64,000 bases of DNA from Mucilaginibacter frigoritolerans (lineage in GTDB: Bacteria > Bacteroidota > Bacteroidia > Sphingobacteriales > Sphingobacteriaceae), in assembly GCF_007830615.1 (NCBI RefSeq), contig NZ_VLLI01000012.1:124001-188000 (forward strand). The letters are read 5' to 3'. The notes under the pieces were generated by a model. That model had not been told where the DNA came from. It searched no databases and was given only the letters and a program-made list of their open reading frames with translations. Within the stretch, counting starts at the first letter, position 1; each line of letters begins with the position of its first letter. Positions 5,106 through 62,663 of the stretch are shown in pieces. The position numbers and the translations under genes are program-made.

Positions 5106-5107
5106 GT

Positions 5108-8490: not shown

Positions 8491-8505
8491 ATTACAATAT
8501 AACCA

Positions 8506-11856: not shown

Positions 11857-12074
11857 TCATATAAAGTTTACTGCGCAGATTAGTTTAATCCTTGAAACTT
11901 GCCTTTGAGTTTATTTTCGGGGCATCGTTATGCCATAGCTATAACAATTGTCAGCTGCAACAAACCTAATGAGGTCAGTGCGTACTCCTACTGATGTTGA
12001 TTTCTTACTCTACTTTAAAGCAAATTTATTTTTAACTATTTTAATATCTTTAAGCTTTTAAATATTTTGTGTTT

Positions 12075-12755: not shown

Positions 12756-13516
12756 TCTGGAAAGTAATTGGTCAAAGTATTATCGGTTCGTCTCATGTAC
12801 AGTCCGGAAAAACTTGTGAAGATGCTTTTCAATTTCAGTTAGTTGATCTACCTGAAGAAGAGCAGGCCTTGATTTGTTTTGTGAGCGATGGCGCCGGGAG
12901 CGCCGTTTGTGCTGCCGAGGCTTCACAACTTGCCGTAAGCAGTAGTGTTGCAACACTTTCTGACTGGATAAGTACCGGCAGAATAGTTGATGATGCTGCA
13001 TTAATGGAGCTGGCAGAAATTGTTTATGATTCATTAAAGGCTGCAGCCGAAGAAAAGGAATTACCACTGAATGAATTTTCATGCACTTTACTGGGTGCTA
13101 TGATCCTGCCGGATAAGGCTTGCTTTTTGCAGATAGGTGATGGCGCAATAGTAAGAAATGATGGTAAGGATTATTTCACACATATTTGGTGGCCACACAA
13201 TGGCGAGTATCAGAACACAACCACCTTTGTGATTGATGACCCGAATTTGCCCAATCTTAAAACCAAAATAGTTGAGGAGCAAATTACTGAAGTAGCCATT
13301 TTTTCGGATGGATTACAAATGTTGGCGCTTAATAACGAAACAGAAAGCGTTCATCAGCCATTTTTTAATGATCTGTTTAAAGTTTTACGTATGGCAGGCA
13401 ACCAGAATCACATAGATATTTTGAATAAAAGGCTGTCTGATTATCTCTCTGGCGATGCAATTAACAGCCGAACAGATGATGACAAAACACTGGTACTGGC
13501 AACGAGGTTAAGGTAA
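12752..13516 (+). CDS. PP2C-type protein phosphatase, YegK type
   Basis: 254 residues from the ATG at 12752, which overlaps the vWA stop (ATGA); a longer frame start inside the vWA gene is rejected for this reason. PP2C metal-binding acidic residues are visible: CEDAF near residue 24, SDGAGSA near 45-50 and FSDGL near 190, with a final RTDDDKTLVL in the place of the family's DN/DD motif. It should remove phosphates put on by the kinase encoded next. Member of the vWA/PP2C/kinase triad. It ends in TAATG overlap with that kinase. Confidence 0.88.
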   Translation: MIWKVIGQSIIGSSHVQSGKTCEDAFQFQLVDLPEEEQALICFVSDGAGSAVCAAEASQLAVSSSVATLSDWISTGRIVDDAALMELAEIVYDSLKAAAEEKELPLNEFSCTLLGAMILPDKACFLQIGDGAIVRNDGKDYFTHIWWPHNGEYQNTTTFVIDDPNLPNLKTKIVEEQITEVAIFSDGLQMLALNNETESVHQPFFNDLFKVLRMAGNQNHIDILNKRLSDYLSGDAINSRTDDDKTLVLATRLR

Positions 13517-15465: not shown

Positions 15466-15471
15466 TAATAA

Positions 15472-16275
15472 TTATTTAGGAGTCAGTTTGGGAGCTATCC
15501 TAAAGAAAATACCCGGAGCCAACCGCATCAGCCAAAGCGCTATCCTCTCACCGCCAAACCTACCGATGTAAGGCTCAAAAGATCCTTTTCTAATAGCTTT
15601 CAAAATCTGCCTGGCAGCTATTTCAGGTGCAAGCCCATTGCTTATATCTTCTGAATGCTTACCCAATCCGTAAGGATTTTTCGTAATGGCATATAAAGAA
15701 ATATTAGTTCTGATATAACCCGGCGTAAGCACTGTTACTTTAATATTATCGGGAGCCACCTCAGCACGCAGGCAATCAAAAAATCCGTGTAGGGCATGTT
15801 TGGCAGCAGCATAAGCGGCCCGCATAGGTGTGCCTATTTTACCCATAACACTGCTGGTTACTACAAAATGCCCGGTTTTTCGTTCTTTAAAGTGGGGCAG
15901 CAAATCTTTGGTGAGCGCTACATAACTAAAATAATCTAGCTCCATAACTTGCCGATGCGCATTCAATTCTGTTTCTATCACGAGCGACCGTTGGGTTACG
16001 CCGCCATTATGCACCATGATATCTATCCGGCCAAAATAACCGATAGCCTGATCAGTTTTCCCTTGCAAAGAAGGGATATCTGATAGATCAAGGGGAAAAA
16101 CCACAACCTGTTCAGGAATACTGCAGGCCTGTTTAACCCGCTGTAATTCTTTTTCTCTCCGGCTGGATAAAATCAGTTTAGCTCCTTGGGCCGATAGAGC
16201 ATATGCCAGAAATTCTCCTATCCCGGAAGATGCTCCGGTTATCCAAACAACCTTGTTGTTAAAATAGTTGCTCAT
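15472..16275 (-). CDS. SDR family oxidoreductase
   Basis: 267-residue classical short-chain dehydrogenase. Cofactor loop TGASSGIGEFLA near 13-24, NGG near 90 in HNGGVTQ, catalytic Ser in VVTSSVMGK, and YAAAKHA (Tyr158, Lys162 approximately). The Arg-rich loop SSRREKEL indicates NADPH preference. The C-terminus is hydrophobic (IALWLMRLAPGIFFRIAPK), as in DHRS7-like membrane-associated SDRs. It converges with the kinase with only 6 bases between stops. Confidence 0.88.
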   Translation of the reverse strand: MSNYFNNKVVWITGASSGIGEFLAYALSAQGAKLILSSRREKELQRVKQACSIPEQVVVFPLDLSDIPSLQGKTDQAIGYFGRIDIMVHNGGVTQRSLVIETELNAHRQVMELDYFSYVALTKDLLPHFKERKTGHFVVTSSVMGKIGTPMRAAYAAAKHALHGFFDCLRAEVAPDNIKVTVLTPGYIRTNISLYAITKNPYGLGKHSEDISNGLAPEIAARQILKAIRKGSFEPYIGRFGGERIALWLMRLAPGIFFRIAPKLTPK

Positions 16276-16390
16276 TTAAATGCTTTTTTAATTTTAGTAA
16301 AAAAAAAACATTAATCATTATCTCTCTTATGAAAATGAAGTCACCATGTCACAATTAACAGTAGTAAAATAAATGCATGGCGGTAATTTT

Positions 16391-16398
16391 TACCTTTG
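16391..16398 (+). promoter_or_regulatory. Promoter -7 element TACCTTTG, leaderless start
   Basis: TACCTTTG matches TAnnTTTG exactly and is followed by CGCCA and the ATG at 16404. In Bacteroidota transcription starts about 5-8 bases after this element, so the mRNA would begin at or next to the start codon. This also decides against the in-frame ATG at 16377, which lies upstream of the element. Confidence 0.7.
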
Positions 16399-16403
16399 CG
16401 CCA

Positions 16404-18308
16404 ATGCACTATTTTAAAAATTTACAGGATCTTTTAAAAACTGAACGTACTGAAGACCGTGATGCCTATTTAAAACTCGCCGAAAGCACTTCTGTTATTG
16501 ACAGGCGAGCGGCTGGCATTGCCTGGTATCCCATTGCTATTACCGGCACTGAACCTAGCCGTGGTGATTATCTGAATGTAGAAGTTGAACGCAAAACACA
16601 TCTTGATGTAATCAGCCAGATAAGGTTTGGCAGCCCGGCGGTATTATTTTCCAATCATGATCCTAAAAACAACCGGGTTGAAGGTGTAATTTCTTATACA
16701 GGTGGTAACCGTTTAAAAATAAACTTGTTTACCGAAGAACTTCCGGATTGGTGCTCGGAAGGTAAGCTGGGCATTGATCTGTTGTTTGATAATAACAGTT
16801 ACGATGAAATGTTTAGCGCCCTTAACCAGGCAGCAAAGCTTTTGGACGATCCTAAAGAAGGACGTTTAGTACAGGTTTTAACCGGCCAAAAACAGCCGTC
16901 TTTCCAGCCACAAAAAATCAACTCGTCTTTAACTGGGTTAAATGAATCGCAGCAAGCTGCCGTAGAAAAAGTAGTTACTGCGCAAGACCTTGCCATTATT
17001 CACGGGCCGCCGGGGACGGGTAAAACCACTACACTTGTACAGGCTATCAGGATATTGGTTACTGAATTCAGTGAAAAAGTACTGGTAGTTGCACCCAGCA
17101 ATACAGCTGTTGATTTGTTAAGCGAGCAATTGTCATTAGTAGGATTAAAAGTTTTACGTATTGGTAATCCGGCTAAAATTTCAGACAGACTAATTGACCT
17201 GACGCTGGATAAACAAATGGTTGATCACCCTTACTCAAAAGAAGCCAAACGTTTAAAAAAGCAGGCGGCCGAATTTAAAAATATGGGGCATAAATATAAG
17301 CGCAACTTTGGCAAAGCAGAACGCGATCAGCGCAAGGCACTATTTAATGAGGCCCATAAAATAATGAAAGAGGTTGGCAAAACGGAGCAGTTTATTATTG
17401 ATGATCTGACAGCCAAAGCACAGGTAATTACGGCAACGCTAGTTGGTTCAAACAATTACGCTATCAAAAGTTTGAGTTATGATACGGTAGTTATTGACGA
17501 GGCCGGCCAGGCTTTGGAACCCGCCTGCTGGATCCCCGTGTTAAAAGCAAAGAAAACTATTTTTGCAGGTGACCATTTGCAGCTCTCTCCAACCATTAAA
17601 TCGGCAACTGCTGCAAAAAATGGGTTAAGCCAAACGCTGATGGAAAAATGCATTGCATTGCACCCGGAAAGTGTAACCATGCTAAACATTCAATACCGAA
17701 TGAATGAAGCGATAATGGCATTTTCTGCACAGCAATTTTATGATAGCCATTTAAACGCGCACCCTTCGGTAGCGCAACGCACACTTTTTGACGGGGATAT
17801 GCCTTTTACTTTTATTGATACTACCGGATGCGGATTTGAGGAAAAGCCCGAAGGCACCAGCGTTGTAAACCCGGAAGAAGCTTCTTTTTTATTTAAATAC
17901 CTTAACCATTTTATTGAGAAGTTGGTGCCTCATTATTCAAAAGCCGATTTTCCATCGGTGGCGGTTATATCGCCTTATAGTCAGCAGATCCGCTTGCTTA
18001 AAGAGCAGCTGATTAATACGCCAGAGCTTAGTGTATATCAGCAAAACATCGCTGTAAACACTATAGACAGCTTTCAGGGCCAGGAGCGTGATATGGTGGT
18101 TATTAGCATGACCAGGAGTAATACCGAGGCATCTATAGGATTTTTGTCAGATATCCGCCGGATGAATGTAGCGATGACACGGGCCAAAAAGAAGCTGGTT
18201 ATTATTGGCGACAGCGGCACATTATCTATCCTGCCATTTTATGCTGATCTGATTAAATATGCAGAAAAAATAAACAGCTATCAAAGCGCCTGGGAATACC
18301 TGTCGTAA
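16404..18308 (+). CDS. SF1B helicase, IGHMBP2/UPF1-like
   Basis: 634-residue superfamily 1 DNA/RNA helicase. Motifs in order: GPPGTGKTTTL (Walker A, near 208), VIDEAGQALEP (Walker B), GDHLQLSP (motif III), QYRMNEAIM (IV), TIDSFQGQERDMVVIS (V) and NVAMTRAKKKLVIIGD (VI). An N-terminal OB-like segment precedes the motor. Bacterial members of this group are poorly characterised; RNA or DNA may be the substrate. The gene stands alone and ends in a strong terminator. Start chosen from the promoter element just upstream. Confidence 0.9.
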   Translation: MHYFKNLQDLLKTERTEDRDAYLKLAESTSVIDRRAAGIAWYPIAITGTEPSRGDYLNVEVERKTHLDVISQIRFGSPAVLFSNHDPKNNRVEGVISYTGGNRLKINLFTEELPDWCSEGKLGIDLLFDNNSYDEMFSALNQAAKLLDDPKEGRLVQVLTGQKQPSFQPQKINSSLTGLNESQQAAVEKVVTAQDLAIIHGPPGTGKTTTLVQAIRILVTEFSEKVLVVAPSNTAVDLLSEQLSLVGLKVLRIGNPAKISDRLIDLTLDKQMVDHPYSKEAKRLKKQAAEFKNMGHKYKRNFGKAERDQRKALFNEAHKIMKEVGKTEQFIIDDLTAKAQVITATLVGSNNYAIKSLSYDTVVIDEAGQALEPACWIPVLKAKKTIFAGDHLQLSPTIKSATAAKNGLSQTLMEKCIALHPESVTMLNIQYRMNEAIMAFSAQQFYDSHLNAHPSVAQRTLFDGDMPFTFIDTTGCGFEEKPEGTSVVNPEEASFLFKYLNHFIEKLVPHYSKADFPSVAVISPYSQQIRLLKEQLINTPELSVYQQNIAVNTIDSFQGQERDMVVISMTRSNTEASIGFLSDIRRMNVAMTRAKKKLVIIGDSGTLSILPFYADLIKYAEKINSYQSAWEYLS

Positions 18309-18383
18309 GAAAAATTTCGATCTGGCTCAATCACCTTTCCATCGCCATAAATGTAAACTGGCATAGGTGCGCGGAAAAGATTT

Positions 18384-18414
18384 AAGCGAAGACATAAATA
18401 ATTAGTCTTCGCTT
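18384..18414 (+). terminator. Rho-independent terminator of the SF1 helicase gene
   Basis: AAGCGAAGAC (18384-18393) pairs with GTCTTCGCTT (18405-18414) around an 11-base loop and is followed by TTTGTTTT. It sits 76 bases after the helicase stop. Confidence 0.85.
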
Positions 18415-18451
18415 TTTGTTTTAAGTATGATATAAACTCATCATCAAGCTA

Positions 18452-19849
18452 TTACATCACTACCTTAACCTTAATTTGTCCGGTAGATAAGGTGCGGATA
18501 ATCAGTTTTTCGCTGGTTGGGTAAATGGCCTGAATGTCTAGGTCCTGGATAGTTACATAAGAGTGAACGCCTTTATCATAGTCGCGGCTGAGTTCTTTTT
18601 GCAACCTGGTTTTGCTATCGGCAATAAACGAAGTAAAGTTATAGGTAGCCCGCTGACGAATCATGCTGGTTATCTTTTCATTAAACATCCATTTAGCCAC
18701 CTTTAGCATCCAGGCTTTGGTTTGTAAGTCAAAACTCAAATCAGGGAACGATAGTTCATGTTTTTCAGCATTATAAACAGGTGTGCCTACCAGGTAAATC
18801 GTCCCGGTGTTTGACCCGCTAAAATCTATCTTCATCGCTATTTTAGTACCTATTCCGTAAACCCGGGTACTATCAACAATAAACTCCTTACCGGCAATGT
18901 CCATTTTTTGGCCCACTACCTGTTGGTTTACAACATTGGTAAGGTGTTTGTAATTCTCTAACAGATCAAGGTATATATTAAACCCATTTGCAGGTACATA
19001 AGTACTTAAGTTTGGTAAGGGCTTTATTGGTTGAGGATTACTTACCGTAGTTACATATGGTTTTGCAGATATCCCAACTGAAAAATTAAGCAAAGAGCCA
19101 TTTAAGTTAAAGCTGCTTAAACGCACCGATTGCGGATTAATATAAACGAAGCCCACATCGCCAACTTTATATTCTACGGCCAGGCTTTTCCATAATTGTT
19201 CAAGCATGGGTTTGGTATTGTAGGCTGCAACCTTAGCGTCAACCTGTTTACCAAGGTCATTAAGGGGTTGATTTAAATAGTCAATCAAACGGTCAGTTAC
19301 ATCAATATTACCCATAAACACATTACAGCGATCCAATGCTTTTGGAGCCGGATACAATATTGTTTTGGACTTTAAATGATAATCAGGCATTACATTGATG
19401 GTTGATTGGTAGGATATTTCCATCCTGCGTAATGGTTCACCAACCCCGCATTGTGCAGAAATAGTAGGTACAATACACTGAGGCCCCGAGCCCAAAAGAG
19501 ATGAGCACTTAGCACAATATGATGCCGTGAAACCATAGCTACCCGTAAATTTCAGGTTAACTACATTATTACTGCCCGTTATAGCAAATGGTGTCCGTAA
19601 AAAAGTATAGCTATAGCTCAAGCCCTGGCAAGGTTGCTGACTATCTGCATATTTGGTTGGTACCGAATTTTCGGCTTGTACAAAATAGGTTTTCAGGTCA
19701 ACGGTTACGGGTACTTCAATGTTAGATAACGGCTGAACAATACCGGGGATTTCGGCACCTGTATTTACAGGGGCCACCGGTTTTAATGTTTTACATGAAT
19801 ACAAAAAAAATGGAAGTGCAAAGGCTAAAAGTAGATGTTTAAATTTCAT
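18452..19849 (-). CDS. DUF4403 family lipoprotein
   Basis: 465 residues from the ATG at 19849, which begins a lipoprotein signal MKFKHLLLAFALPFFLYSC with the lipobox cysteine at residue 19; the longer frame start 29 codons upstream would hide it. The DUF4403 features are the repeated all-beta halves, LSNIEVPVTVDLKTYF near the start of the mature chain and the C-terminal RDYDKGVHSYVTIQDLDIQ. The fold is related to lipid-binding tubular (BPI/SMP-like) proteins by family annotation. Likely anchored in the outer membrane facing the periplasm. No operon partner. Confidence 0.85.
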   Translation of the reverse strand: MKFKHLLLAFALPFFLYSCKTLKPVAPVNTGAEIPGIVQPLSNIEVPVTVDLKTYFVQAENSVPTKYADSQQPCQGLSYSYTFLRTPFAITGSNNVVNLKFTGSYGFTASYCAKCSSLLGSGPQCIVPTISAQCGVGEPLRRMEISYQSTINVMPDYHLKSKTILYPAPKALDRCNVFMGNIDVTDRLIDYLNQPLNDLGKQVDAKVAAYNTKPMLEQLWKSLAVEYKVGDVGFVYINPQSVRLSSFNLNGSLLNFSVGISAKPYVTTVSNPQPIKPLPNLSTYVPANGFNIYLDLLENYKHLTNVVNQQVVGQKMDIAGKEFIVDSTRVYGIGTKIAMKIDFSGSNTGTIYLVGTPVYNAEKHELSFPDLSFDLQTKAWMLKVAKWMFNEKITSMIRQRATYNFTSFIADSKTRLQKELSRDYDKGVHSYVTIQDLDIQAIYPTSEKLIIRTLSTGQIKVKVVM

Positions 19850-20267
19850 GCTTAGGGGATGATTTTCAATGGAGTTTAATTGATATACTATTTTTAATGA
19901 TGATAAATTTAATAAAGCTCCAGGGGTTTCCGTCAAATGTTTTTACTTCTCCCTGGCTGCATCTCTTAACTGTTTAAGTTATTCTTTAGTATCAATGTTT
20001 AATTTTTCTAAGTGGCTGACATATTTCAACAAGTAATTTCAATCGCAAAAATAAAATATTGCCCCGGCTATGAGCCTATTAAAAGCAGGATATTATTCTT
20101 TTTCTGTTTGACCAGTTGTATCCCTGGTAAATAAGTGTGAAATTATTTGGTCAGCTTGCCAAATCTTCTCCTTATATGAGCCTTACACTAAAGTAAATTG
20201 AGCTGCACACTAAAGTTAACATCACATTTAGTATTGAAATTTGTTATATAAAACAAACCCATAAAAA
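19850..20267. other. 418-base intergenic region with a 10-base direct repeat
   Basis: No gene, RNA or terminator seen between the DUF4403 start and the SDR start. The right part holds the direct repeat described separately and an inverted TTTGTT/AACAAA (20240-20257) close to the SDR ATG. Confidence 0.5.
20185..20216 (+). promoter_or_regulatory. Direct repeat ACACTAAAGT, 22-bp period, possible AraC operator
   Basis: ACACTAAAGT occurs at 20185-20194 and 20207-20216, two helical turns apart, 52 bases before the SDR gene that is followed by an AraC-family regulator. AraC proteins bind direct repeats at about 21-bp spacing, so this is the natural candidate site. No experimental or comparative support. 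Confidence 0.4.
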
Positions 20268-50126: not shown

Positions 50127-50199
50127 GACTTGGTAGCTCAGCCGGTAGAGCAACTGACTCTTAATCAGTGGGTCGAGAGTTCGATCCTCTCCCAGGTCA
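50127..50199 (+). tRNA. tRNA-Lys(CTT)
   Basis: 73-base tRNA. Acceptor GACTTGG/CCAGGTC, D arm AGCTC...GAGC, anticodon stem ACTGA/TCAGT with loop CTCTTAA (anticodon CTT at 50160-50162), T arm GAGAG-TTCGATC-CTCTC, discriminator A and CC encoded. It is intact. Its 3' half is also read antisense as the end of the recombinase ORF, making it the probable attachment site of the element to its right. Confidence 0.95.
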
Positions 50200-51712
50200 C
50201 CTTTGACCGCAAATCAGATTTAACACCTGTTTTGCGGTCTTTTTTTTGCTCAAAAACGGCCTTTACGGTATCAAAAACGCAGATTGCCTCATTCATTCGG
50301 AGAGTTCGATGTTCCTCTCCGTCAAAAGTCAATTTTTCAGGGAACATCGAACTCACTATATACCTTTTACCCTCTAAATCAGCACCTTGATACAATTCTG
50401 GCAATTTTGCAATATTTCTTAATGCCCTTTCTAAAAGGGGTGCAATACTCTCCGTTTTCCCAGACAAATCAAACAGCTTTCCTTCTAAAATTGAGACCTG
50501 TCTTTCACAATCATTTTTAATTTTTTTGTAGTCAGCTCCATCCAGATCTCCACTTAGTAATAAGTCCCGTGCCTTATTGATTTTATCGTGATATTCCGAA
50601 AGCTGTTTTTTATAGGAGATTAATTCGCTTTTTCCCTGACCTACCTCCTGCTCATAAGCTTCAATAATTAACGCTTTATACAAATCGCATACAGCTGGAT
50701 TAAGTGCATGTTTTTTAAGGAGGTCTATAAACTTATCGTTAACAGTCTTCGCATTAAACCTGACGCCACATTTTGAGTTGCAATGATAATAGTGGAAATA
50801 TTTGGTTTTACCCTTGGAAGCACTTCCACTCAACATCAGCCCACATTTTGGACAAATCAAATATCCCCGCAATGGAAGCTCATCCATAGAACGGATTTTT
50901 ACCTTATTATTTTTTCGTCTGCCATCGAGTACTTCTAAAACTTCATTAAAAAGACTTTCCGAAATTAGAGCCTCATGCTGCCCTGACACTAAATAGGCTT
51001 CTTCATCTTTAAACTTCGGAATTACAATTTTACCACAATAAACAGGGTTTCGGATTACCTTCCAAAAATTCTTCCGTCCCATTTCAAGTCCTTTCAACCG
51101 TGCCTCACGCCAAATTTGATCTATGTAAAAATCACCGGTTGCAAGTTGTTCAAACACCCATTTCATAATTGTGGCGTTAGGTTCTTTCGGAGAAATAAAT
51201 TTATTTCCTCGTTCATCGACTCTATTCTCATAACCGATTAACGCTTGTCCCATCCAGCGCCCTTCTTTTCGTGCCCGGCGCATCCCATAAAACGTATTGA
51301 GGGCTCTCCGGTCATTATCAACCTCGGGTTGAGCAAGATAGATAGCCAACATTAATTTACTTTCCGGTACAAACATATCAAGCGGTTGCTCTATTGCCTG
51401 TGGTTCTACAAAATACCCCTTAAGTATATTGATCATTTGGTAAGCATCACCAGCATTTCGGCTGAAACGGTCCCACTTGGTGAACAAAACTAAGTCAGTA
51501 TGGCCTTTCTTTTTTTTTAATGTGGTCAAAAGCTTTTGCCATTCAGGTCTTTTAAATGTTTTAGCTGAGTAATCTTCGTAAATTATACTTCTAATTTTTA
51601 TATCCTTAACACTACAATACCTGGTTAAAACTTCTTCCTGGCTCCGCTGGGAATATCCTTTCTCAGCCTGCTCATCGGTACTTACCCTAATATATAAATC
51701 GGCAACTTTCAT
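50165..51712 (-). CDS. Large serine recombinase (integrase)
   Basis: 515 residues. Resolvase-type catalytic domain with nucleophile Ser11 (LYIRVSTDEQ) and the KWDRFSRN active-site helix near 100; then the recombinase domain with GYENRVDERGNKFI, a zinc ribbon (CPKCGLMLSG...CNSKCG, about 283-311) and a coiled coil. Site-specific integration and excision. Its final ten codons (TWERIELSTH) are antisense to the tRNA-Lys and the stop lies in the anticodon stem, so the native end of the protein may lie earlier. ATG overlaps the preceding small ORF (ATGA). Confidence 0.92.
   Translation of the reverse strand: MKVADLYIRVSTDEQAEKGYSQRSQEEVLTRYCSVKDIKIRSIIYEDYSAKTFKRPEWQKLLTTLKKKKGHTDLVLFTKWDRFSRNAGDAYQMINILKGYFVEPQAIEQPLDMFVPESKLMLAIYLAQPEVDNDRRALNTFYGMRRARKEGRWMGQALIGYENRVDERGNKFISPKEPNATIMKWVFEQLATGDFYIDQIWREARLKGLEMGRKNFWKVIRNPVYCGKIVIPKFKDEEAYLVSGQHEALISESLFNEVLEVLDGRRKNNKVKIRSMDELPLRGYLICPKCGLMLSGSASKGKTKYFHYYHCNSKCGVRFNAKTVNDKFIDLLKKHALNPAVCDLYKALIIEAYEQEVGQGKSELISYKKQLSEYHDKINKARDLLLSGDLDGADYKKIKNDCERQVSILEGKLFDLSGKTESIAPLLERALRNIAKLPELYQGADLEGKRYIVSSMFPEKLTFDGEEHRTLRMNEAICVFDTVKAVFEQKKDRKTGVKSDLRSKVTWERIELSTH
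50205..50247 (+). terminator. Terminator after tRNA-Lys
   Basis: GACCGCAAA (50205-50213) pairs with TTTGCGGTC (50231-50239), followed by eight T. It stops transcription of the tRNA and is embedded, antisense, in the last coding part of the recombinase gene. Confidence 0.88.
50302..50354. repeat. Perfect 14-bp inverted repeat in the recombinase 3' end, T-arm mimic
   Basis: GAGTTCGATGTTCC (50302-50315) and GGAACATCGAACTC (50341-50354) are exact complements within the coding sequence. The left arm also continues the T-arm-like stretch GGAGAGTTCGAT...CCTCTCC (50299-50320), sharing GAGAGTTCGAT with the tRNA T arm (50176-50186). Confidence 0.6.
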
Positions 51713-52937: not shown

Positions 52938-53360
52938 TTAAGTTGTGTGTTTGAGATATTGCATGAGCATCGTTTCCGCCTGTTCCAGCCATTCGGACAG
53001 CCGGGACAGTTGAGCGTTATTTTTAGCCGCTGCAATTGCAGCCATGCTAACCAATTGCAGTATTTCCAGCAGTTGTTCCTTATGCGGAATGAATTTCTCC
53101 GATCCCGTTGCCGCAAGGATAATATTGCGTGCGTATGCGGTGCGTGATAGGTCAGCTTCCAGAGCATTGCGATTGATGGCTGCAAATTGTTTCAAGGTGA
53201 CGTCAATCCGTAGCTCCTTGCGGGGGCGTTTTTGCTGCTTCCATTGCTTTTTGTATTGTGTCCGGTATTGGTGCTTTGCACTGGCTATCTCTTCCGGTGT
53301 GCCGTTCAGCACACCGGCTTCTTTGAGATAGTCATACAAGGCTTTGCTCCGGATTTTCAT
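52938..53360 (-). CDS. MobC-like ribbon-helix-helix relaxosome protein
   Basis: 140 residues. RKELRIDVTLKQFAAINRNALEADLSRTAYARNIIL near 47-82 is the ribbon-helix-helix unit of plasmid MobC proteins, followed by an Ala-rich helical tail. MobC melts and marks oriT for the relaxase. It lies 11 bases upstream of the acidic protein start and is immediately preceded (1 base) by the coupling protein gene. Confidence 0.85.
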   Translation of the reverse strand: MKIRSKALYDYLKEAGVLNGTPEEIASAKHQYRTQYKKQWKQQKRPRKELRIDVTLKQFAAINRNALEADLSRTAYARNIILAATGSEKFIPHKEQLLEILQLVSMAAIAAAKNNAQLSRLSEWLEQAETMLMQYLKHTT

Positions 53361-54785
53361 TTATATTAAGAATGGGATGTCAGTATCAACGGCAGTGCTT
53401 GTTAATGAAATAGGGGGAATACTGGCGTAACGCCTGAAATTTAAATTACGCCAGTACGGAGACAGATACCCTTTGATTATTGGCACATTTAAAGCAATAA
53501 TGAGCGATCTGTTCTTAGGCAATAATCGGGCTTCGCTGGCCGTGACGAGATGTTTTGTTTTTTCGCGACCCTTTTCGTCAACATAAGTGCAGGTACCGCT
53601 CAGGGCCTCGATATCACGCAAAACGTCTAAGGAGGTATTTCCCGGAAGAAAAATCTTCACTGCGCAATTTGCCGTAATATTTTCAGCTTCGTCCCCGTAC
53701 CGGGATTTTAATTGGGTGACGCTTTGCAGGCAGGCAAGCGTCGATAAAAAATGCTTTCTTCCGTTGCTCAACGCCAGCGGTAAAATCTTGATATAGTAGG
53801 CAGCGCATTCCTCTAAAATTACATGTATCGGCAGTTCTTTCTTAGTCGGTATCCGGGATAAAGCATGCGCGTAGAATTGCTGAAAGAACATCCCCGTCAA
53901 AACTGCTGTGTAGTCCGCCGTCCCGACGGTTCCCAAAAGATAGATTGCCGTTGGCACCGTTCTTAATTGATTAAAATCAATTTTGGCGGTTGTTGCCGTG
54001 GCTTTTGCAATATGGGAATCTGAGAAGATAACCAGGGCTGCTTTGGCGGATGCCAAAATATTCTGCATGGTTTTTTCGGAGTTTCCGATAAAAGAAAGGT
54101 ATTCGGTGATGAGTTTTTTATCACCCGTCTGCGCTACCAGCTCGTCCACTTTTTTTGACAATGTAGGGGAAGACAGGCAATGGATGAGGTGCAGGATATT
54201 GGCAAAATTGCGGTGCTCTTCGGGTTGATATAGTGTCAACTTAGCCATTAATACTAAAATCGTTTTCACCGACAGCGACCAGAACTTGTCGCCTTTTGAA
54301 CCGGCATCCAGCGTTGAAGCAACCAAGATGTCAATAATCTTATGCACATCATTAGGGTCTTCTGTATTTATTATCGGATTATACCCGTTGCCGATTGACG
54401 GGTTGGACAGATGTATCGGCAGTATTTTAAAATGCTTTGATTGATAGCCGGACGCACCACGCAGCAGTTCTCCGCTGACATCCGTTATAAGCATGCTGCA
54501 CTTCTTTAAACTGAATAAATTTGGAAAAATCAAGGTACTGGTTTTACCGCTACCCGAGGGTCCGTATATGACTGCATTGGCCATCGACTGCCTGCGTGAT
54601 AGCCTTCGATTTTTTCCAATCCACAGGCCTTTTCCAAATGGACTAGCTATAGAAAGGGTGCTGCTAAACGATGCGTTTTCACCGCCCGGTTTGTTTAGTA
54701 GCATCACTAATGCCTGAAAGAACTCTACAATCAGCATCGCAAGACCTTGCATGCAAAATAATATGATGGAATTTACTGTTTTCAT
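53361..54785 (-). CDS. VirD4/TraG-type coupling ATPase
   Basis: 474 residues. N-terminal hydrophobic segment (ILFCMQGLAMLIVEFFQALVMLL, 8-30) and one P-loop domain: Walker A GPSGSGKTST at 75-84, DVSGEL near 104 in place of the usual DPKGE, and VILEECAAYY near 325 as Walker B. Shorter than full T4CPs. Brings the relaxase-DNA complex to a secretion channel supplied in trans. It overlaps nothing but is 8 bases after the 38-aa ORF. Confidence 0.92.
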   Translation of the reverse strand: MKTVNSIILFCMQGLAMLIVEFFQALVMLLNKPGGENASFSSTLSIASPFGKGLWIGKNRRLSRRQSMANAVIYGPSGSGKTSTLIFPNLFSLKKCSMLITDVSGELLRGASGYQSKHFKILPIHLSNPSIGNGYNPIINTEDPNDVHKIIDILVASTLDAGSKGDKFWSLSVKTILVLMAKLTLYQPEEHRNFANILHLIHCLSSPTLSKKVDELVAQTGDKKLITEYLSFIGNSEKTMQNILASAKAALVIFSDSHIAKATATTAKIDFNQLRTVPTAIYLLGTVGTADYTAVLTGMFFQQFYAHALSRIPTKKELPIHVILEECAAYYIKILPLALSNGRKHFLSTLACLQSVTQLKSRYGDEAENITANCAVKIFLPGNTSLDVLRDIEALSGTCTYVDEKGREKTKHLVTASEARLLPKNRSLIIALNVPIIKGYLSPYWRNLNFRRYASIPPISLTSTAVDTDIPFLI

Positions 54786-54793: not shown

Positions 54794-54910
54794 TTATTGA
54801 AATGCTTTTTTTGCTTGTAAAACAATATCCAATGCCATTTTTAATAGAAACTCTGCCACAGCAAGGATGCTAAAGCAAAGAAATTTGAGAATTTGCAGAA
54901 TGACTTTCAT
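54794..54910 (-). CDS. 38-aa membrane-associated peptide between lipoprotein and coupling protein
   Basis: ATG at 54910 overlaps the lipoprotein stop as ATGA; TAA at 54794. MKVILQILKFLCFSILAVAE then FLLKMALDIVLQAKKAFQ: one hydrophobic helix followed by an amphipathic basic helix. The coupled position argues for real translation. It may help the coupling protein in the membrane. Too short for family recognition. Confidence 0.65.
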   Translation of the reverse strand: MKVILQILKFLCFSILAVAEFLLKMALDIVLQAKKAFQ

Positions 54911-55617
54911 AGCGGCATAAATTGAGTTTCGATATGCACAGTGGTGTTATGAGCCCTATAGATGTTCTCGTAAAAATGTGCAACCCGCATGTATGCGTAA
55001 TTTTGCCGATAACTGTAGGGTGCATATAGGAACCAGACTTGCTCCCCGGCCAGGTCAGGCAACGGGGCAGTTGATTCCAATTGCTTTTCAATCAAGCTCG
55101 GGCTTTTTTCCAAGAGCACCAGCGTTTGAGGATTGTAAAATCTAACCTCACTATTTTCCATCAGATTACTGAAAATGAGTAGAATGCGGCGTTGAACGTC
55201 TCGTTTAGATAGCAAGGTTGCTTGTTCGGCTATGTTTCTGAATATAATGGAATGTTGAAAGGTTCTGATGCTATCAAGGGAAGACAAATGCTTTTGCAAC
55301 TCCTCTTTGAACTGTTCAATGCGTGCATGCCTGATGATAGGATTACCCTGCCAGACATCTTCTTTGGGAAGCGAAACAGTTTCGGTCTTGTTTACATCCT
55401 TGTCGCTTATTGCGCATAATTTAATTTCTATTCCTTGAGCAGGGTTTTGGTCAAGGTTGAATGGTGCGAGAAGCATATCAACTGTTGGATATACCGGGAG
55501 TCTGTCCGTTTGATCTACCAATACCGTCATGGTTGTATCATAGACTGCTTTAGGCTTGTTACAAGCGCTGAGTGTTATGCTCATTGCCAATACTGCATAT
55601 TTGATTGTTGAGTTCAT
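54907..55617 (-). CDS. Lipoprotein of the mobilization operon, 236 aa
   Basis: Signal peptide MNSTIKYAVLAMSITLSAC with lipobox Cys19. The mature part opens TTMTVLVDQTDRLPVYPTVDMLL and later has QRRILLIFSNLMENS, a strand-helix pattern like a vWA/Rossmann domain with Asp-x-Thr-Asp in the MIDAS position, incomplete. Likely periplasmic/outer-membrane partner of the transfer genes; homologous genes are seen in Bacteroidota elements but the role is unknown. Confidence 0.75.
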   Translation of the reverse strand: MNSTIKYAVLAMSITLSACNKPKAVYDTTMTVLVDQTDRLPVYPTVDMLLAPFNLDQNPAQGIEIKLCAISDKDVNKTETVSLPKEDVWQGNPIIRHARIEQFKEELQKHLSSLDSIRTFQHSIIFRNIAEQATLLSKRDVQRRILLIFSNLMENSEVRFYNPQTLVLLEKSPSLIEKQLESTAPLPDLAGEQVWFLYAPYSYRQNYAYMRVAHFYENIYRAHNTTVHIETQFMPL

Positions 55618-55618: not shown

Positions 55619-56704
55619 TTAAAAAAGATTTAAGGATTTAAAATTTGTTATGAAGCCAAACGGGTATTCGTCTGAATTGAATCCTATTGGCCTGGCATTA
55701 TCCTGGCGCCGCATCAGGTTCGTTTTTCGCCAGAGAGCCCATCCCCGAAAGGCGGAAGCAATGACTATTTCCTCTGCCTTGCATCCGTATTCGACAATGG
55801 AACCGTTTACATGGCGCAAGTCAGCATTGGATTGCTTGACTGTCTCAATCTCTTGCTCCAGGCGACTTATTTCCGCCTTATTGTCTGCCGCCGCTTTTTT
55901 CTGTTGCTCGTACCTGAGCATTTCCATGCGTTGTTCCTGTTTTGGATACAGAAATTTGTTGATGGCAACACTTATTACAAAAAACAGTAATGATAATATC
56001 GCGAATGGCAAAGGACTGAAATACAAGGTTGCACCATGATTGTATGTTGAGATCGCTTGTGCAAGATATTGTACCCGCGCGCTTGCCATGTAGTAAAAGA
56101 TGATAGCAAGGCCAATCAATATACCGCTTGCAATTACTCTTCGCTGCCAGAGGTTTTTCCCAAAAGCGACAAGTCGTTCAAAGAAGTGGGCCAATAAGGT
56201 GAGCGAGCAAGCAAATAGCAAGCTTATTGCTGCAGCCTCCAAGTAAGTGTATCCATAGCTTTCAAACGCTCCCATCGAGAACAGGCCATCAGCCAATAAC
56301 GGAACGCTTATAAGTAGCCACACCATGACAATGCGCTTCGTACTAAAGGTCGGTGGCTGTTTTGTTTGTAATTCACGTTCTATCGCTACTTGCTTTTCTT
56401 TGGCAGACACCACCTTGTTTTGAAGAGCATGCACCTGCCGTTCTGTTAATTGGTCATTTTCAATCACCTCAGATATCAAAGTCTTTACCTGAAGCTGTAT
56501 GCCGATCTCGCCGATAAGTTCCTGGTATTTGAGGTGGTCTTCCTGATAGTAGGAACTGATATTTTGCTCCGCCAAAGAGGGCTTGTTTCGTACGGCGTAG
56601 CTTTCCGCATTGATAATAACATGTTGTCCGATCTCTTTAAGTTTTTCTGCCAGAAAAGTGTCGAGTTCAGGTCTGTGATACAGCTTTTTTTCAATTGTTT
56701 TCAT
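55619..56704 (-). CDS. Four-helix membrane protein with coiled coils, 361 aa
   Basis: Cytosolic N-terminal helical region (about 1-120), four membrane helices near 128-145, 153-172, 190-208 and 228-248, then a coiled coil (YEQQKKAAADNKAEISRLEQEIETVKQ) and a C-terminal globular part. Starts 1 base before the lipoprotein ATG and probably in the same operon. No recognised family; a transfer or entry-exclusion function is possible. Confidence 0.75.
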   Translation of the reverse strand: MKTIEKKLYHRPELDTFLAEKLKEIGQHVIINAESYAVRNKPSLAEQNISSYYQEDHLKYQELIGEIGIQLQVKTLISEVIENDQLTERQVHALQNKVVSAKEKQVAIERELQTKQPPTFSTKRIVMVWLLISVPLLADGLFSMGAFESYGYTYLEAAAISLLFACSLTLLAHFFERLVAFGKNLWQRRVIASGILIGLAIIFYYMASARVQYLAQAISTYNHGATLYFSPLPFAILSLLFFVISVAINKFLYPKQEQRMEMLRYEQQKKAAADNKAEISRLEQEIETVKQSNADLRHVNGSIVEYGCKAEEIVIASAFRGWALWRKTNLMRRQDNARPIGFNSDEYPFGFITNFKSLNLF

Positions 56705-56862: not shown

Positions 56863-57156
56863 CTACTTTCTGTTACCTATTTGATAATCTGTGGCGATGG
56901 GTGTTTTTTGTTCCAGTTCGTAAAAGTGGAATCGTTCAATCAAGCTGTTTTTTACTACATCGTATGATGAACTACGAAATACCATCCTATTTTTTTCAAA
57001 TAGCAAGAACTCCTCATTTATCCTAATGATTTTGAAGTGCCGCCACTCCGGATACCATATTGTTTGTGTGTTGATAATTTTATTGAGAATATCAGGGTAT
57101 TCTATTAGTGCATTGATAACCTTGTTATCAATCGAGGTTATTTTTACTTTTTCCAT
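56863..57156 (-). CDS. Hypothetical protein of the element, 97 aa
   Basis: Soluble alpha/beta protein, MEKVKITSIDNKVINALIEY at the start and FLLFEKNRMVFRSSSYDVVK in the middle. No family recognised. Its 5' end overlaps the stop of the next minus-strand ORF by 29 bases, and a 158-base gap with a CGGAT/ATCCG hairpin (56815-56834) separates it from the membrane protein gene. Confidence 0.6.
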   Translation of the reverse strand: MEKVKITSIDNKVINALIEYPDILNKIINTQTIWYPEWRHFKIIRINEEFLLFEKNRMVFRSSSYDVVKNSLIERFHFYELEQKTPIATDYQIGNRK

Positions 57157-57328
57157 CTTTATTGTTTTTAGTATGCGTTATTGGATTGATCTCGGTAGAA
57201 GGATCTTGCGGGGCTACAAAAGCCTTTTTCATCAATTCGTTTAAATTGAGGTGACGGTTGTCGGTAGAAAAACAAAAGCGAATAGATTTGCTATCTATCT
57301 GGTTTTTAGTTATTTTTATTGGCTTCAT
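57128..57328 (-). CDS. Small basic protein, 66 aa, first gene of the mobilization operon
   Basis: MKPIKITKNQIDSKSIRFCF at the N-terminus and a polar, Asn/Lys-rich C-terminus. ATG at 57328; an upstream ATG 9 codons earlier lies inside the oppositely oriented NTPase gene and is rejected. Its start codon overlaps that of the NTPase gene on the other strand (CATG). Unknown function; might be a DNA-binding leader protein. Confidence 0.5.
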   Translation of the reverse strand: MKPIKITKNQIDSKSIRFCFSTDNRHLNLNELMKKAFVAPQDPSTEINPITHTKNNKDGKSKNNLD

Positions 57329-60116
57329 GATTGTTTTTTTAAGTCCATGTTGCAATTTTATCTATTATTTGAATAGCTACCATTTAGCCATTTTTTATTT
57401 TTTTAGCCTTTTTTTTAGCCTTATCATGTCGAAAATTAAAGTCCCTAATATTTTAGAGTATTTTATTCCTAATGATCAGTTTGATTCGACTCTGTATTCT
57501 GAGAAAATACATGTGTTATTTTTCACATTAGTTCAGGAGTACTTTAGAAAGGATGTCACTAACGTAACAAACAGATTAAAACCAAGGCTATTCAATTCGA
57601 TACCTAATAATTACATAAGTCTAGCTTCAGCTATAAAAAGAACCTATCAGATAGATATACATGAAAACTTCTTGAGTACATTATGTTTTCCAGGTAAGAA
57701 TCGCAAAAATAAAAAATGGACCAAAGGCATAGATAAAGAGAAGTTAGTAACTATTTACCAATTCCTTATTAACCATCCATTTTTAGCAAGTAAAAAAGAA
57801 GAAGATTGGATACATGAAATAAGGACCACCTCAATAGTTCTCCCGGTTGATGACAATGAACTCATCACCTATATTTTGGAGAATACAAATTTTAGCAGAA
57901 TTGGTTCAACTTATAGACGCAGTCATAATGCTAATAGATTTTATGACGGTTTTCCAGTGCGCTATGAAGATCTGGCAGCTGATTTCGATTTCCCAAGAGC
58001 CATTTATTTTAATAAAAACGGAATTGCAGATGTCCTCAAAAGACACGAAGAGCAAACCGAAAGCTCTTTTATTATAATAAGTAGCCCCGGAGGAACTGGA
58101 AAATCTATTTTAATAAATAGAATTGGATTTAATTTGGCTGGCAAAGGCAAACAGGTTTTTACATTAAATAGCGACTGGATTGAAGATCACCGTAGCCATA
58201 ATTTACAAACACAAATTAAATTATTTATAAAACATGTGGATGATTGTATAATCATAATAGATGGTGTAGCTGAGTGTATTTTTAGAGAAGAAATTAACTT
58301 AAAAAGTATAACGGAAAGTTTCTTAGATAAAAAAGTCTTATGGCTATTTTGTGAACAATCCAACAGATGGAACCAAGTCAAAAATAAAATAAGAGCGATA
58401 ACATCTAACCGTAATTTCTTTTATTTTCAGCTCACAACACTGACCGACATTGAGTGTAACACGATTGTTGATAAGATGATTGATTTAGAAGAGCATGGTG
58501 ACCTAACCGTAAAAAATGCATCATTATCAAGACATGAACGATTAGAGATTTGCCAAAATTCCTCCGGTCGGCATTTATTGATAGCTATGCTCCAGACACG
58601 GTATGGGAAGAACTTCTACGATATTATTCTCGAAGAGTATGAAAATATTCCTTCAAAAATTGGGAAAGAGGCATATTTAAACATATGCTTCTGGCATAAA
58701 TGGTACATTAAGATTCCCGAATCTTTATTTATGTCATCAATGTCTTTCGAGACAGCATTAGATCTATCAGATTATAAAACGACTACGGAAGACCTGATTA
58801 TTAATGATAACATTGGGTTAGCTTCGAGGCACGTCATAATTGCAGACATACTTTATCGAACTTTTATAATAGATAAATTTCAATGTTACTATTATGTAAA
58901 GAAAATATTCACTGTAATCGGAGATGATGTTGTCGGAGCGCGCCGTTTTTTAAATCGTTTTTCCGACGAGGAATTCCCTCAGTTGTTTATAACAATTCTA
59001 AAAAGAGACAAAGATTTAATTAATGAAATTATTTTGATCATAAATAGCCATGCCACCTTTTTTGACAAAGAATTATTCTTAAATTTTTTGACATTCAAGG
59101 CTATGGTGGCAAGAATTATAGGTAATGATGATGAAGCTATTAGCATATATAAACATATCCTTAATGAAATCGATTCAGAATATTCATTTGCTCTTCGGCA
59201 AATTGCCTGGATTGAACATGATCGAAAAAACTTTGATATAGCTGCAAAATATGCAATTGATTCTTTTCATTGCTCGAGAGGTGTTGCCGATCATATCATC
59301 CAAATAGCCAGGATTTTGTCACAAAATACTATTGAAAATTTCAAAAAAGCTGACTTTTATTACAAAGAGGCTATTAGTGCAAGTAGTTCGAATAAGAAAT
59401 ACAAGGAAGAGTACACCAATTATCTTAATGCATTGAATAGCTTTTCATACCTAAAAAGTTTAAGCGAAAAGCAATTATTACCTGAAAAAATTGTCCGGCT
59501 ACTTAAACCAAATTTAAAATTTCTAAAAACCTATTTCGGTATAAATTCAGATTTATATAAAGAAGAGTTGTTAAATACATTGCATTCTATAGGGGGTAAT
59601 AGTGAGGGGAGTTTAGCCAGCCTGGATGAGATTTTCCAAGGCTTCAATCTTGATAACGACCCAATTATGAAAAGTAAATATTATAGCAATATGGCAAGGC
59701 TAATGTTTCTCGATTGGAAAGAAAATTATGGTATTACGGATAGCAAAGAAATATATGATATGTTTAATATGAGTATAGATTTAAATTTTGATGATCCCTT
59801 TGCACATTGTTGGCTTGGTACCTGTTTTAAAGAAATAGACGCAAATTCTATTATGGCGGAAAAGGAATATAGACTAGCATTCATTTTATCCTCAGACGCA
59901 AAACATGAATTTGATAAAAACCATCCTATTTTTTCACATAACCTAGCTCTTTTCATAATGGATGAAGTAATTTTAGGTAACAAGCCCAAGAGTGACCTTG
60001 TTGAAGCTGAAGAGCTATTCATTTTCTCTATTAAAATGAATGAGCAAAAAAAGTTAAAATTTACGTGGGCACAAAAGAGTCTTAACAAATGTAGGACGCT
60101 TATGGGCAATTTATAA
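57327..60116 (+). CDS. Membrane-anchored STAND-like P-loop NTPase with C-terminal TPR-like repeats
   Basis: About 929 residues from the ATG at 57327; other possible starts are TTG 57258/57288 or ATG 57426. N-terminal hydrophobic segment, then an unassigned domain (about 60-230), then a P-loop domain: Walker A IISSPGGTGKSILIN near 250-264, Walker B CIIIIDGVAE near 306-315, then helical repeats (about 590-925) of TPR type: FKKADFYYKEAISASSSN, DDEAISIYKHILNEI, DFAHC-like DDPFAHCWLGTCFKEI. More A+T-rich than the transfer genes. Architecture fits a STAND sensor, many of which guard against phage; this role is inference. Confidence 0.75.
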   Translation: MIVFLSPCCNFIYYLNSYHLAIFYFFSLFFSLIMSKIKVPNILEYFIPNDQFDSTLYSEKIHVLFFTLVQEYFRKDVTNVTNRLKPRLFNSIPNNYISLASAIKRTYQIDIHENFLSTLCFPGKNRKNKKWTKGIDKEKLVTIYQFLINHPFLASKKEEDWIHEIRTTSIVLPVDDNELITYILENTNFSRIGSTYRRSHNANRFYDGFPVRYEDLAADFDFPRAIYFNKNGIADVLKRHEEQTESSFIIISSPGGTGKSILINRIGFNLAGKGKQVFTLNSDWIEDHRSHNLQTQIKLFIKHVDDCIIIIDGVAECIFREEINLKSITESFLDKKVLWLFCEQSNRWNQVKNKIRAITSNRNFFYFQLTTLTDIECNTIVDKMIDLEEHGDLTVKNASLSRHERLEICQNSSGRHLLIAMLQTRYGKNFYDIILEEYENIPSKIGKEAYLNICFWHKWYIKIPESLFMSSMSFETALDLSDYKTTTEDLIINDNIGLASRHVIIADILYRTFIIDKFQCYYYVKKIFTVIGDDVVGARRFLNRFSDEEFPQLFITILKRDKDLINEIILIINSHATFFDKELFLNFLTFKAMVARIIGNDDEAISIYKHILNEIDSEYSFALRQIAWIEHDRKNFDIAAKYAIDSFHCSRGVADHIIQIARILSQNTIENFKKADFYYKEAISASSSNKKYKEEYTNYLNALNSFSYLKSLSEKQLLPEKIVRLLKPNLKFLKTYFGINSDLYKEELLNTLHSIGGNSEGSLASLDEIFQGFNLDNDPIMKSKYYSNMARLMFLDWKENYGITDSKEIYDMFNMSIDLNFDDPFAHCWLGTCFKEIDANSIMAEKEYRLAFILSSDAKHEFDKNHPIFSHNLALFIMDEVILGNKPKSDLVEAEELFIFSIKMNEQKKLKFTWAQKSLNKCRTLMGNL

Positions 60117-60210
60117 GTCGTTTGTTAACATCATACTAATAGTAAGTATATCTTGCCAGAAACTTTATAATATGCTATAATCAGCACCAGGTAAAAGCTC
60201 TTTAAATCAA

Positions 60211-60277
60211 GGTCGTTTAGTGTCCGGAGATTTTTAGGGCTATTTTAATAAATGGCATTTCGGGTCACTAAATAACC
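60211..60277. repeat. Imperfect inverted repeat GGTCGTTTAGTG/CACTAAATAACC
   Basis: Arms 60211-60222 and 60266-60277, 10 of 12 paired, between the NTPase and the 196-aa gene. It may be the promoter/operator region of the latter or a terminator-like structure for the former. Confidence 0.4.
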
Positions 60278-60282
60278 GAAAT

Positions 60283-60873
60283 ATGCCAATGTTAACTCTA
60301 ACAGTACAAAATGCAGCAATCCTAAAAAAGGCGCAAAACAAAATCTATAATCAAAAGTGTTTAACTTCCAAGGAACGTGATGTTTTAGGTAACTTTCTGA
60401 CCAGCCTCCCCTCGTGCGAAACTCTCCTAAATGAAAAGTTCCCCCTTAGCGAAGAATTCGAAATAAAAATTTTTGACATTGAAGCTATATGGCCCCAGTT
60501 GCAAAAATGGATTGCTTTATTTAAAAATCTCCCCAAAAATGGTAATACACACTATCCGAATGCGGGATGGATTGATGCAGAAGAAGATAAGGACTTCTGG
60601 AGGAGAAATGTCATCATCAAAGTAGCCTTCGTCCCCTCGTTTCAATATAGCAAGAAGGATGAAGATGAGAACAAAATTATCGGCCTTAATTTGAAAACTG
60701 ACGGCACCGCACAGTTTGAGTTTTGGATGATAGAAGATGCTGAAAACTTTCCTGATCTCTATAACTTTAATGGCTCATGGAAAGAAGCATATCTGCTTAC
60801 CGTCAAAACCCTACAACAGGGCTGGCCGCAAACCAAATTTCCCAAGGAATTTGAACAGTTCTTGAAAAAATAA
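60283..60873 (+). CDS. Unknown 196-aa protein
   Basis: Soluble protein with no membrane segment. N-terminal helical part with KCLTSKERDVLGNFLTSLP, then IDAEEDKDFWRRNVIIKVAFVPSF and a beta-rich C-terminus. I do not recognise a family. It follows the NTPase by 166 bases on the same strand and has its own strong terminator; it may be part of the cargo with that gene, though the inverted repeat in the gap suggests its own promoter. Confidence 0.6.
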   Translation: MPMLTLTVQNAAILKKAQNKIYNQKCLTSKERDVLGNFLTSLPSCETLLNEKFPLSEEFEIKIFDIEAIWPQLQKWIALFKNLPKNGNTHYPNAGWIDAEEDKDFWRRNVIIKVAFVPSFQYSKKDEDENKIIGLNLKTDGTAQFEFWMIEDAENFPDLYNFNGSWKEAYLLTVKTLQQGWPQTKFPKEFEQFLKK

Positions 60874-60943: not shown

Positions 60944-61783
60944 ATGGCAATCGTCAAAATCCTTTCGCGGCACACTCCATCGTATAGAAGCCTTATTCAG
61001 TACATTCTAGATGAAGCAAAATTGGGCAAGGCAGAGGTTTACACGCACAACCTGCGTTCTGATACGGTAGATGGTTATGTGCAGGAATTTATCGAAAATG
61101 AAGCCATAAGGAAGCAATCTCGTTCTGATCAGATATATCTCTTTCATGAAATCCTTTCTTTTTCTGCTTATGAAGATAGTGCAGTTATTACAAAGGAAAT
61201 GATTGATGACTTTGTACACGAATATATCAGGCTGCGAGGCGAAACGGGCATTATGATCGGTGCCGTTCATCGGGATAAAGAGCATGTCCATGTGCATTTC
61301 TGCACATCAGGGCTACATTTTAGAACAGGCAAGTCTTTTGGCATGTCCAAAGTAAAATTGCATGAATTAAAAGTATCCTTTCAGGAATATCATAAACATA
61401 AGTATCCCGAACTTACCGAGAGCCTGCCAGAGCATGGCAAGGGAGAGCGGTACAAAAGTCATGTACAATGGCATGCCGCCCAACGCGAACGGATCATTGA
61501 TACAGTAAATAAGTGTTTTGCCCAAGCAACAAGTCAGCAGGAGTTTTTAGCCCTTTTGCGTGACAGGGAACTCCATCATTATGAGCGCAACAGCAAGCCG
61601 ACAGGTATAGAATACGAAGGATTAAAGTTTCGCTTTTCCCGACTTTTGTCAGATAAGCAATTTGAAAGCTTACCAATTGAACGAAGCGACGAAGATCAGG
61701 CATTAGCAGAAATACAGGCGGTGCGAGAGTGGCAGCAAGACAGAGATGAAAGAAATATGGCATTAGAAGGTAAATCTAGATAG
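60944..61783 (+). CDS. Relaxase, MobP/Relaxase-family
   Basis: 279 residues from the ATG at 60944; a longer frame beginning at 60875 would translate through the terminator and is rejected. Tyr14 in RHTPSYRSLIQY is the likely nicking residue, and EHVHVHF (His114, 116, 118) the metal-binding triad. His68 in YLFHEIL may contribute. Shorter than typical relaxases, so the C-terminal helicase or other extension is absent. It covalently nicks oriT and pilots DNA. Distant from MobC here, with cargo between. Confidence 0.88.
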   Translation: MAIVKILSRHTPSYRSLIQYILDEAKLGKAEVYTHNLRSDTVDGYVQEFIENEAIRKQSRSDQIYLFHEILSFSAYEDSAVITKEMIDDFVHEYIRLRGETGIMIGAVHRDKEHVHVHFCTSGLHFRTGKSFGMSKVKLHELKVSFQEYHKHKYPELTESLPEHGKGERYKSHVQWHAAQRERIIDTVNKCFAQATSQQEFLALLRDRELHHYERNSKPTGIEYEGLKFRFSRLLSDKQFESLPIERSDEDQALAEIQAVREWQQDRDERNMALEGKSR

Positions 61784-62018: not shown

Positions 62019-62663
62019 ATGAAACCCACTATTTTATTTATTTCAATTGCAATGCTGGCTTTTTTAAACGCAAAAGATCAGCCAAAAATAAAATTGTCGC
62101 TATTACACGATAATAATTATAAAAATAATGCACACAAAATTGAATCAGAACAAGCGTTTGAATTGGCGTCCCAAATTTTTAATTCGACGGAATTTTATAA
62201 TGCAATAAAAGATTTATCATTTGTATATCCAAACCACTGTTTAACTTGTGAAACGCTAGATTATTCAAGAAAAACTCGCATCCCAGGTAAAGAAGTATTG
62301 CAACGACTTTTTAAAAATCCTAGTGCATTATTATCTTTCAATTTAGAGGAGGGTGAATGTCGTGGCCCTCTTGGTCATACTTGTCCAGAGTGGGAAAACA
62401 AAGAACATGAAACTACGACATATTACCTTGCTGATTCTTGCAATATGCATGAGTTAGAAACGAAATATAGATTAGCGGTAAATATTTGTCATGAGTACAT
62501 GCATTTTATAGGATATTGCCATCCTGCAAAAATGGGTATTGAACCCCAAAATGGCGACATACCCAATGCAATAAATTACAGAGATGACATTGCATATAGG
62601 GTTGGATGGATTGCCTATTATATTTGCGTTGAATGGCAAAAGAAGAGCCACTCATTGAAATAG
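62019..62663 (+). CDS. Exported protein with metzincin-type zinc motif
   Basis: 214 residues. Signal peptide MKPTILFISIAMLAFLNA, mature protein with a perfect HExxHxxGxxH zinc motif, HEYMHFIGYCH at residues 158-168 (ligands His158, His162, His168, catalytic Glu159). Six or more Cys (CLTC, ECRG, TCPE, DSC, NIC, GYCH) could form disulfides outside the cytosol. No Met-turn was identified. Predicted periplasmic or secreted protease, location outside the transfer genes but inside the element or the chromosome next to it. Confidence 0.65.
   Translation: MKPTILFISIAMLAFLNAKDQPKIKLSLLHDNNYKNNAHKIESEQAFELASQIFNSTEFYNAIKDLSFVYPNHCLTCETLDYSRKTRIPGKEVLQRLFKNPSALLSFNLEEGECRGPLGHTCPEWENKEHETTTYYLADSCNMHELETKYRLAVNICHEYMHFIGYCHPAKMGIEPQNGDIPNAINYRDDIAYRVGWIAYYICVEWQKKSHSLK

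Follow-up and report, generated by a model that had tools for sequence, protein, structure and literature searches.

What do two adjacent genes do that stand between the mobilization genes and the relaxase gene of a mobile element, and are they passengers there or part of the machine? The question arises in a 64,000-nucleotide stretch of Mucilaginibacter frigoritolerans DNA (contig NZ_VLLI01000012.1, positions 124,001 to 188,000), hereafter the window. The original prediction, made from the nucleotide letters and their translations, had described the pair as cargo: a membrane-anchored NTPase with the layout of a STAND sensor and a possible new N-terminal effector, followed by a 196-aa protein. 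In the analysis below, the pair proved to be a fixed core slot of one element family, not casual cargo. Functionally, it is read here, at roughly even odds, as a putative STAND-type conflict (immunity-like) module in which the small protein would supply or recruit the effector.

A fixed slot in an integrative and mobilizable element

Open reading frames and Pfam matches of the window confirmed the predicted position of the pair: the frames at 57258-60116 and 60283-60873 are flanked by the transfer genes on one side and the relaxase gene on the other (Table 1). From the tRNA-Lys gene rightwards, the minus strand encodes the serine recombinase, a 337-aa protein, the NikA-like protein, the coupling protein and the 236-aa, 361-aa and 97-aa proteins. 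Divergent from this block, the genes of the large ATPase, the 196-aa protein and the MobA/VirD2-like relaxase follow one another on the plus strand. The tRNA neighbourhood was compared in eleven genomes, and in ten of them homology ended at about 50200, the 3' end of tRNA-Lys, indicating that this is the insertion site; the left end of the element lies there, at 50200. Since genes for an integrase, a relaxase and a coupling protein occur together at this site, the locus classifies as an integrative and mobilizable element. Its right end was looked for and not found, and a search for direct repeats at the element ends returned none of note.

Table 1. Features of the element within the window (window positions).
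Feature	Position	Strand	Basis
tRNA-Lys (ctt), insertion site of the element	50127..50201	+	tRNA call; homology to most other genomes ends at 50200
Large serine recombinase	50165..51712	-	PF00239, E 1.6e-21; 3' end overlaps tRNA-Lys
140-aa mobilization accessory protein, weakly NikA-like	52938..53360	-	PF21983, E 0.007, below cut-off; conserved in 7/7 elements
VirD4/TraG-like coupling protein	53361..54785	-	Pfam PF02534, E 1.9e-31
236-aa lipoprotein-like core gene	54907..55617	-	N-terminal hydrophobic stretch and conserved Cys; alignment of seven relatives
361-aa element core gene, hydrophobic segments	55619..56704	-	Present in the same 7/150 genomes as the 196-aa gene
97-aa protein	56863..57156	-	Relative in G407, 43% over 65 aa
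Bacteroidota-type promoter-like site (TTG, 22 bases, TAGATTTG)	57258..57290	+	Consensus match
nSTAND5 ATPase gene, probable true extent, 896 aa from ATG	57426..60116	+	PF25199; start from G444 and upstream comparison; model resembles SAMD9 and Avs5
N-terminal region of about 170 residues, helical	57426..57935	+	Without family match; low-confidence model
nSTAND5 ATPase domain, residues 171-321 of 896	57936..58388	+	Pfam coordinates shifted by 56 residues
Walker A, SSPGGTGKS, residues 219-227	58080..58106	+	Sequence; G223, G225 and K226 invariant in alignment A5
Walker B segment, CIIIIDG (D279)	58245..58265	+	Sequence
TPR-like helical repeat tail, putative sensor	58989..60113	+	AlphaFold model and TPR superhelix matches, model residues 522-896
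196-aa partner, only in this element family, without known family	60283..60873	+	Genome, database and structure searches
MobA/VirD2-like relaxase, 279 aa from ATG, 3' of the pair	60944..61783	+	Pfam PF03432, E 2.6e-12

Several further observations concern the surroundings. In G413 (L104 15407-16954), a recombinase related to that of the window occupies the same tRNA-Lys site, with other genes behind it. More mobile genes, among them a second recombinase-like gene and one for an XRE-type regulator, lie to the right of the window (L099, own contig, 1-20000), where a nested or tandem arrangement of elements is possible. The frame at 62019-62663 encodes a secreted-looking protein of 214 aa whose motif NICHEYMHFIGYCH is zinc-metallopeptidase-like; it gave no Pfam match and was not seen beside the relaxase in other elements. 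In the 236-aa core protein, possibly of vWA type, a D-x-T/S-D/G near the N-terminus is conserved.

Of the 150 genomes searched in the genus, seven encode the 196-aa protein, and just these seven also have the 361-aa gene. In every one of these elements, an nSTAND5 gene and then the 196-aa gene occupy the slot that separates the transfer genes from the relaxase gene, and across the 150 genomes the pair was neither missing from this element family nor seen outside it. The nSTAND5 profile scored above its cut-off in six of the ATPases (own, G444, G406, G407, G424 and G416), and that of G546 was assigned by homology. Two types of ATPase, 14-19% identical to each other, fill the slot: type one (own and G444) has about 900 aa and a TPR-like tail, and type two (G406, G407, G424, G416 and G546) has 513-657 aa. 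A tRNA gene (Lys, Glu, Met, Glu, Met, Glu) lies beside the recombinase gene in six elements. In G416, the recombinase and ATPase genes (L055 1210-2823, 7473-9129) are split by apparent frameshifts, from decay or sequencing error. The idea that the 196-aa gene alone belongs to the backbone, with variable cargo upstream, was dropped because every slot proved to contain an nSTAND5 gene.

The large gene had been described as richer in A+T than its neighbours, and this holds for the pair: the ATPase gene has 32.1% and the 196-aa gene 38.6% G+C, against 42-49% for the transfer genes of the own element. The pair is lower in G+C than the other core genes in all seven elements (ATPase 32-39%, 196-aa 36-43%, other core genes 41-68%), with the largest contrast in G546 (37 and 43% vs 57-68%). 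The original label of cargo has to be qualified, as the presence of the pair in 7/7 elements speaks for a fixed slot rather than a casual load.

Being constant in the element family and confined to it, the pair could also serve the element in a core function. The main rival to the conflict-module reading is a regulator of transfer, in which the pair would sense a signal from the donor, the recipient or a helper element and control excision or relaxase action, its immune look being inherited. It would account for a pair that occurs in 7/7 elements, on the same strand, directly upstream of the relaxase and nowhere else, and it gains plausibility from an immune-like CARD-NLR operon reported to control the release of a gene transfer agent (PMC13236601). 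Against it count the filling of the slot by two dissimilar ATPase types, a composition foreign to the backbone even in the G+C-rich G546 element, and the split ATPase frame in G416. We consider transfer control possible but improbable on balance.

Start codon, domains and model of the large ATPase

The reading frame of the large ATPase is open for 952 aa from a TTG at 57258 to the stop at 60116, and its first residues include the hydrophobic segment from which a membrane anchor had been predicted. The nearest full-length homologue, in G444 (44% identity over 903 columns), begins at own residue 57; upstream of its start the frame stays open for only 19 codons, and for only 3-21 in the ATPase genes of the other five elements. 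The Bacteroidota-type promoter match, a perfect TAnnTTTG with its upstream TTG, falls inside the claimed membrane segment. Because of the G444 homology, the short upstream frames and the promoter match, translation probably starts at ATG 57426, giving 896 aa, and the supposed membrane anchor is therefore probably an artefact of translating the leader on paper. Further observations agree: the DNA just 5' of the own and G444 starts is alike (AGCC, CTTAT, start codon), positions 57258-57425 lack the first-position purine bias seen in the gene body, and 8% of stop-free shuffles of the T-rich leader were equally hydrophobic. The segment is missing from the 44% homologue and from the proteins of the other five elements, and is thus not a feature of the family. 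The membrane anchor was accordingly rejected.

The prediction of a Walker A/B NTPase held up, with SSPGGTGKS and CIIIIDG in the sequence and a match to nSTAND_NTPase5 (PF25199) at E 9.7e-11 and 42.1 bits against a cut-off of 34. With its TPR-like tail, the protein also has the predicted layout of a STAND sensor; the profile match and the Walker motifs are present in the sequence, and the C-terminal repeats are seen by prediction only. No housekeeping or transposition ATPase proved homologous along the full chain: the best NCBIfam match was the IS21 helper ATPase, with 16 bits against a cut-off of 200. A short peptide pattern search of viral and genome contigs found no direct homologues of the ATPase.

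The long repeat tail that had been predicted is well supported by structure modelling as a TPR-like superhelix. The AlphaFold model (mean pLDDT 68, pTM 0.41) shows an ATPase core together with a long tail of helical repeats, for which the Pfam TPR_8 match lay below the cut-off; the TPR-like reading follows from the model and its structural matches to TPR proteins. In Foldseek searches of the PDB, the model was closest to human SAMD9 (E 2.3e-9) and the EfAvs5 filament (E 8.4e-9), followed by many TPR proteins and Avs3. VIA, the second aligner, put TPR proteins at the top; it aligned 9jap with model residues 146-679 at Z 15.2, with an rmsd of 19.5 over 469 residues that is large because of the multi-domain superposition. 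Judged from the model, what the whole chain shares with Avs5 is its layout.

The suggestion that the N-terminal domain may be a new effector found no support. Its roughly 170 residues gave no family match beyond chance hits even at E 10, Pfam and PADLOC searches found no enzymatic effector in them, and the model of the region is helical and of low confidence. The N-terminal regions of the two ATPase types are similar neither to each other nor to the 196-aa protein. A helix-turn-helix-like domain in this region, guessed from the pattern alone, was also discarded, as no tool agreed with it.

The 196-aa partner and the role of the pair

The 196-aa protein had no useful match among plasmids, viral contigs, Pfam, NCBIfam, PHROGs and solved structures. 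Its model has a mean pLDDT of 67 and no Foldseek match under E 1; with the second aligner, UBC/RWD-type folds made up many of the rows, but at Z 3-5, a score too low for an assignment. No conserved cysteine and no conserved catalytic set was present in its alignment. That the protein has no known fold at useful confidence, and that PADLOC matched neither it nor the ATPase of the window, counts against the conflict-module reading.

The divergence of the two proteins was compared across the seven elements. Pairwise identities of the 196-aa protein correlated with those of the ATPase (r 0.84, Mantel p 0.017), a value that leans on the own-G444 pair and falls to r 0.10 in the five type-two elements alone. 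The correlation with the adjacent relaxase was r -0.30 for the 196-aa protein and r -0.15 for the ATPase. Single comparisons illustrate the pattern: own and G444, which share the ATPase type, have 196-aa proteins of 63% identity; own and G424, which differ in ATPase type, have relaxases of 80% identity and 196-aa proteins of only 36%. These figures bear on the view that sensing and effector action both reside in the ATPase, the 196-aa protein being a relaxosome accessory that belongs to the backbone. In its favour, the 196-aa gene always adjoins the relaxase gene and is known only from these elements; the divergence of the 196-aa protein, however, follows the ATPase and not the relaxase, and no effector domain is recognizable in an ATPase that would have to act alone. 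This view appears unlikely.

Two adjacent genes in an order fixed in all elements would also suit a toxin-antitoxin or addiction pair, in which a toxic ATPase is held in check by the 196-aa protein, to the benefit of the element's stability. Usual toxin-antitoxin pairs are unlike this one in gene sizes and order, the pair has no family match, and other readings would predict a split ATPase next to an intact 196-aa gene, as in G416, just as well; we regard an addiction pair as very unlikely.

For the preferred conflict module, the following course is conceivable. The tail would bind a foreign protein, from either a phage or a rival element, and ligand binding would drive ATP-dependent oligomerization through the ATPase. 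The oligomer would then activate or recruit the 196-aa protein, which would supply or adapt the effector role that SIR2 or nuclease-like domains have in free-standing relatives, with arrest or damage of the infected cell as the outcome. The short helical N-terminal region might serve as the docking part, comparable to an effector-associated adaptor domain. The effector role is proposed for the 196-aa protein because both ATPase types of the elements lack a recognizable effector and the partner is constant; the small partner may have taken over the executing part. More tentatively, and with the chances rather against it, two STAND lineages, with SIR2-type and nuclease-type relatives, could each have been recruited without an enzymatic effector to one slot, sharing one new small partner, so that an immune-type sensor is now core to a transfer machine, excluding rivals or timing transfer. 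If these readings are true, two STAND types with one small partner would show how effectors move in trans, the pair would give a testable new effector or adaptor family, and it could be asked whether mobilizable elements use immune-type sensors against rivals or to time their own transfer.

Relation to known STAND systems

The closest relatives of the own ATPase type outside the element are SIR2-nSTAND5-TPR proteins of Bacteroidota and plasmids (G138, G316 and G430; also Acinetobacter WP_283269499.1). They have the ATPase family and the TPR tail in common with it, with local similarity of about 24-29% that runs through the ATPase into the following region. A SIR2 domain is fused to these proteins, whereas the own ATPase lacks SIR2 and is followed by the 196-aa gene. 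For type two, a relative in G473 has 1165 aa and an N-terminus that reads as PD-(D/E)XK nuclease-like (QYGIDI...YYVIQSK), a reading by motif only, for which Pfam gave no match; no 196-aa homologue was found in the G473 genome. The free-standing relatives with a fused SIR2 or nuclease-like domain are thus without the 196-aa gene, a contrast that makes the 196-aa protein the candidate for the functional half which the element ATPases lack.

Two further arrangements were observed. In G277 (L042 4166-12682), which belongs to another family of the class, a type-two nSTAND5 gene stands beside genes for JAB-domain, ThiF (E1-like) and VirD4-like coupling proteins, possibly reflecting a wider habit of pairing nSTAND5 ATPases with mobile elements. 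In G225 (L043 4535-8017) and G473 (L115 4090-7587), nSTAND5 proteins with nuclease-like N-termini have strings of near-identical tail repeats, as if the sensor array changed by recombination. Within the one literature collection searched, no paper used the name nSTAND5 or joined a STAND NTPase, a relaxase and mobilizable elements.

Avs5 (AVAST type 5, SIR2-STAND) is alike in overall layout, and its EfAvs5 filament matched the own model; it is reported to have an N-terminal SIR2 domain, nSTAND3 and TPR-type repeats (PMC12931631). By Pfam and PADLOC, the SIR2 domain is missing from the own ATPase, which has only about 170 residues before the ATPase domain, and the nSTAND3 profile (PF20720) reached 17.3 bits against a cut-off of 27.2. 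Human SAMD9, implicated in innate immunity (PMC12931631), was the best Foldseek match, but at about 12% identity and a TM of about 0.3 the likeness is one of layout, not of membership. Nearest to the proposed division of labour are the putative STAND systems with an effector-associated domain (EAD), a non-enzymatic adaptor on the STAND protein for which recruitment of a separate effector has been proposed (PMC10907252). In the own pair no known EAD was matched, nor was any peptidase family in the 196-aa protein. Avs5 and other STAND defence proteins of its kind have the effector on the same chain, and both nSTAND5 proteins and STAND defence are already known kinds; what is new here is the fixed slot, filled by two ATPase types with a constant partner that has no known family.
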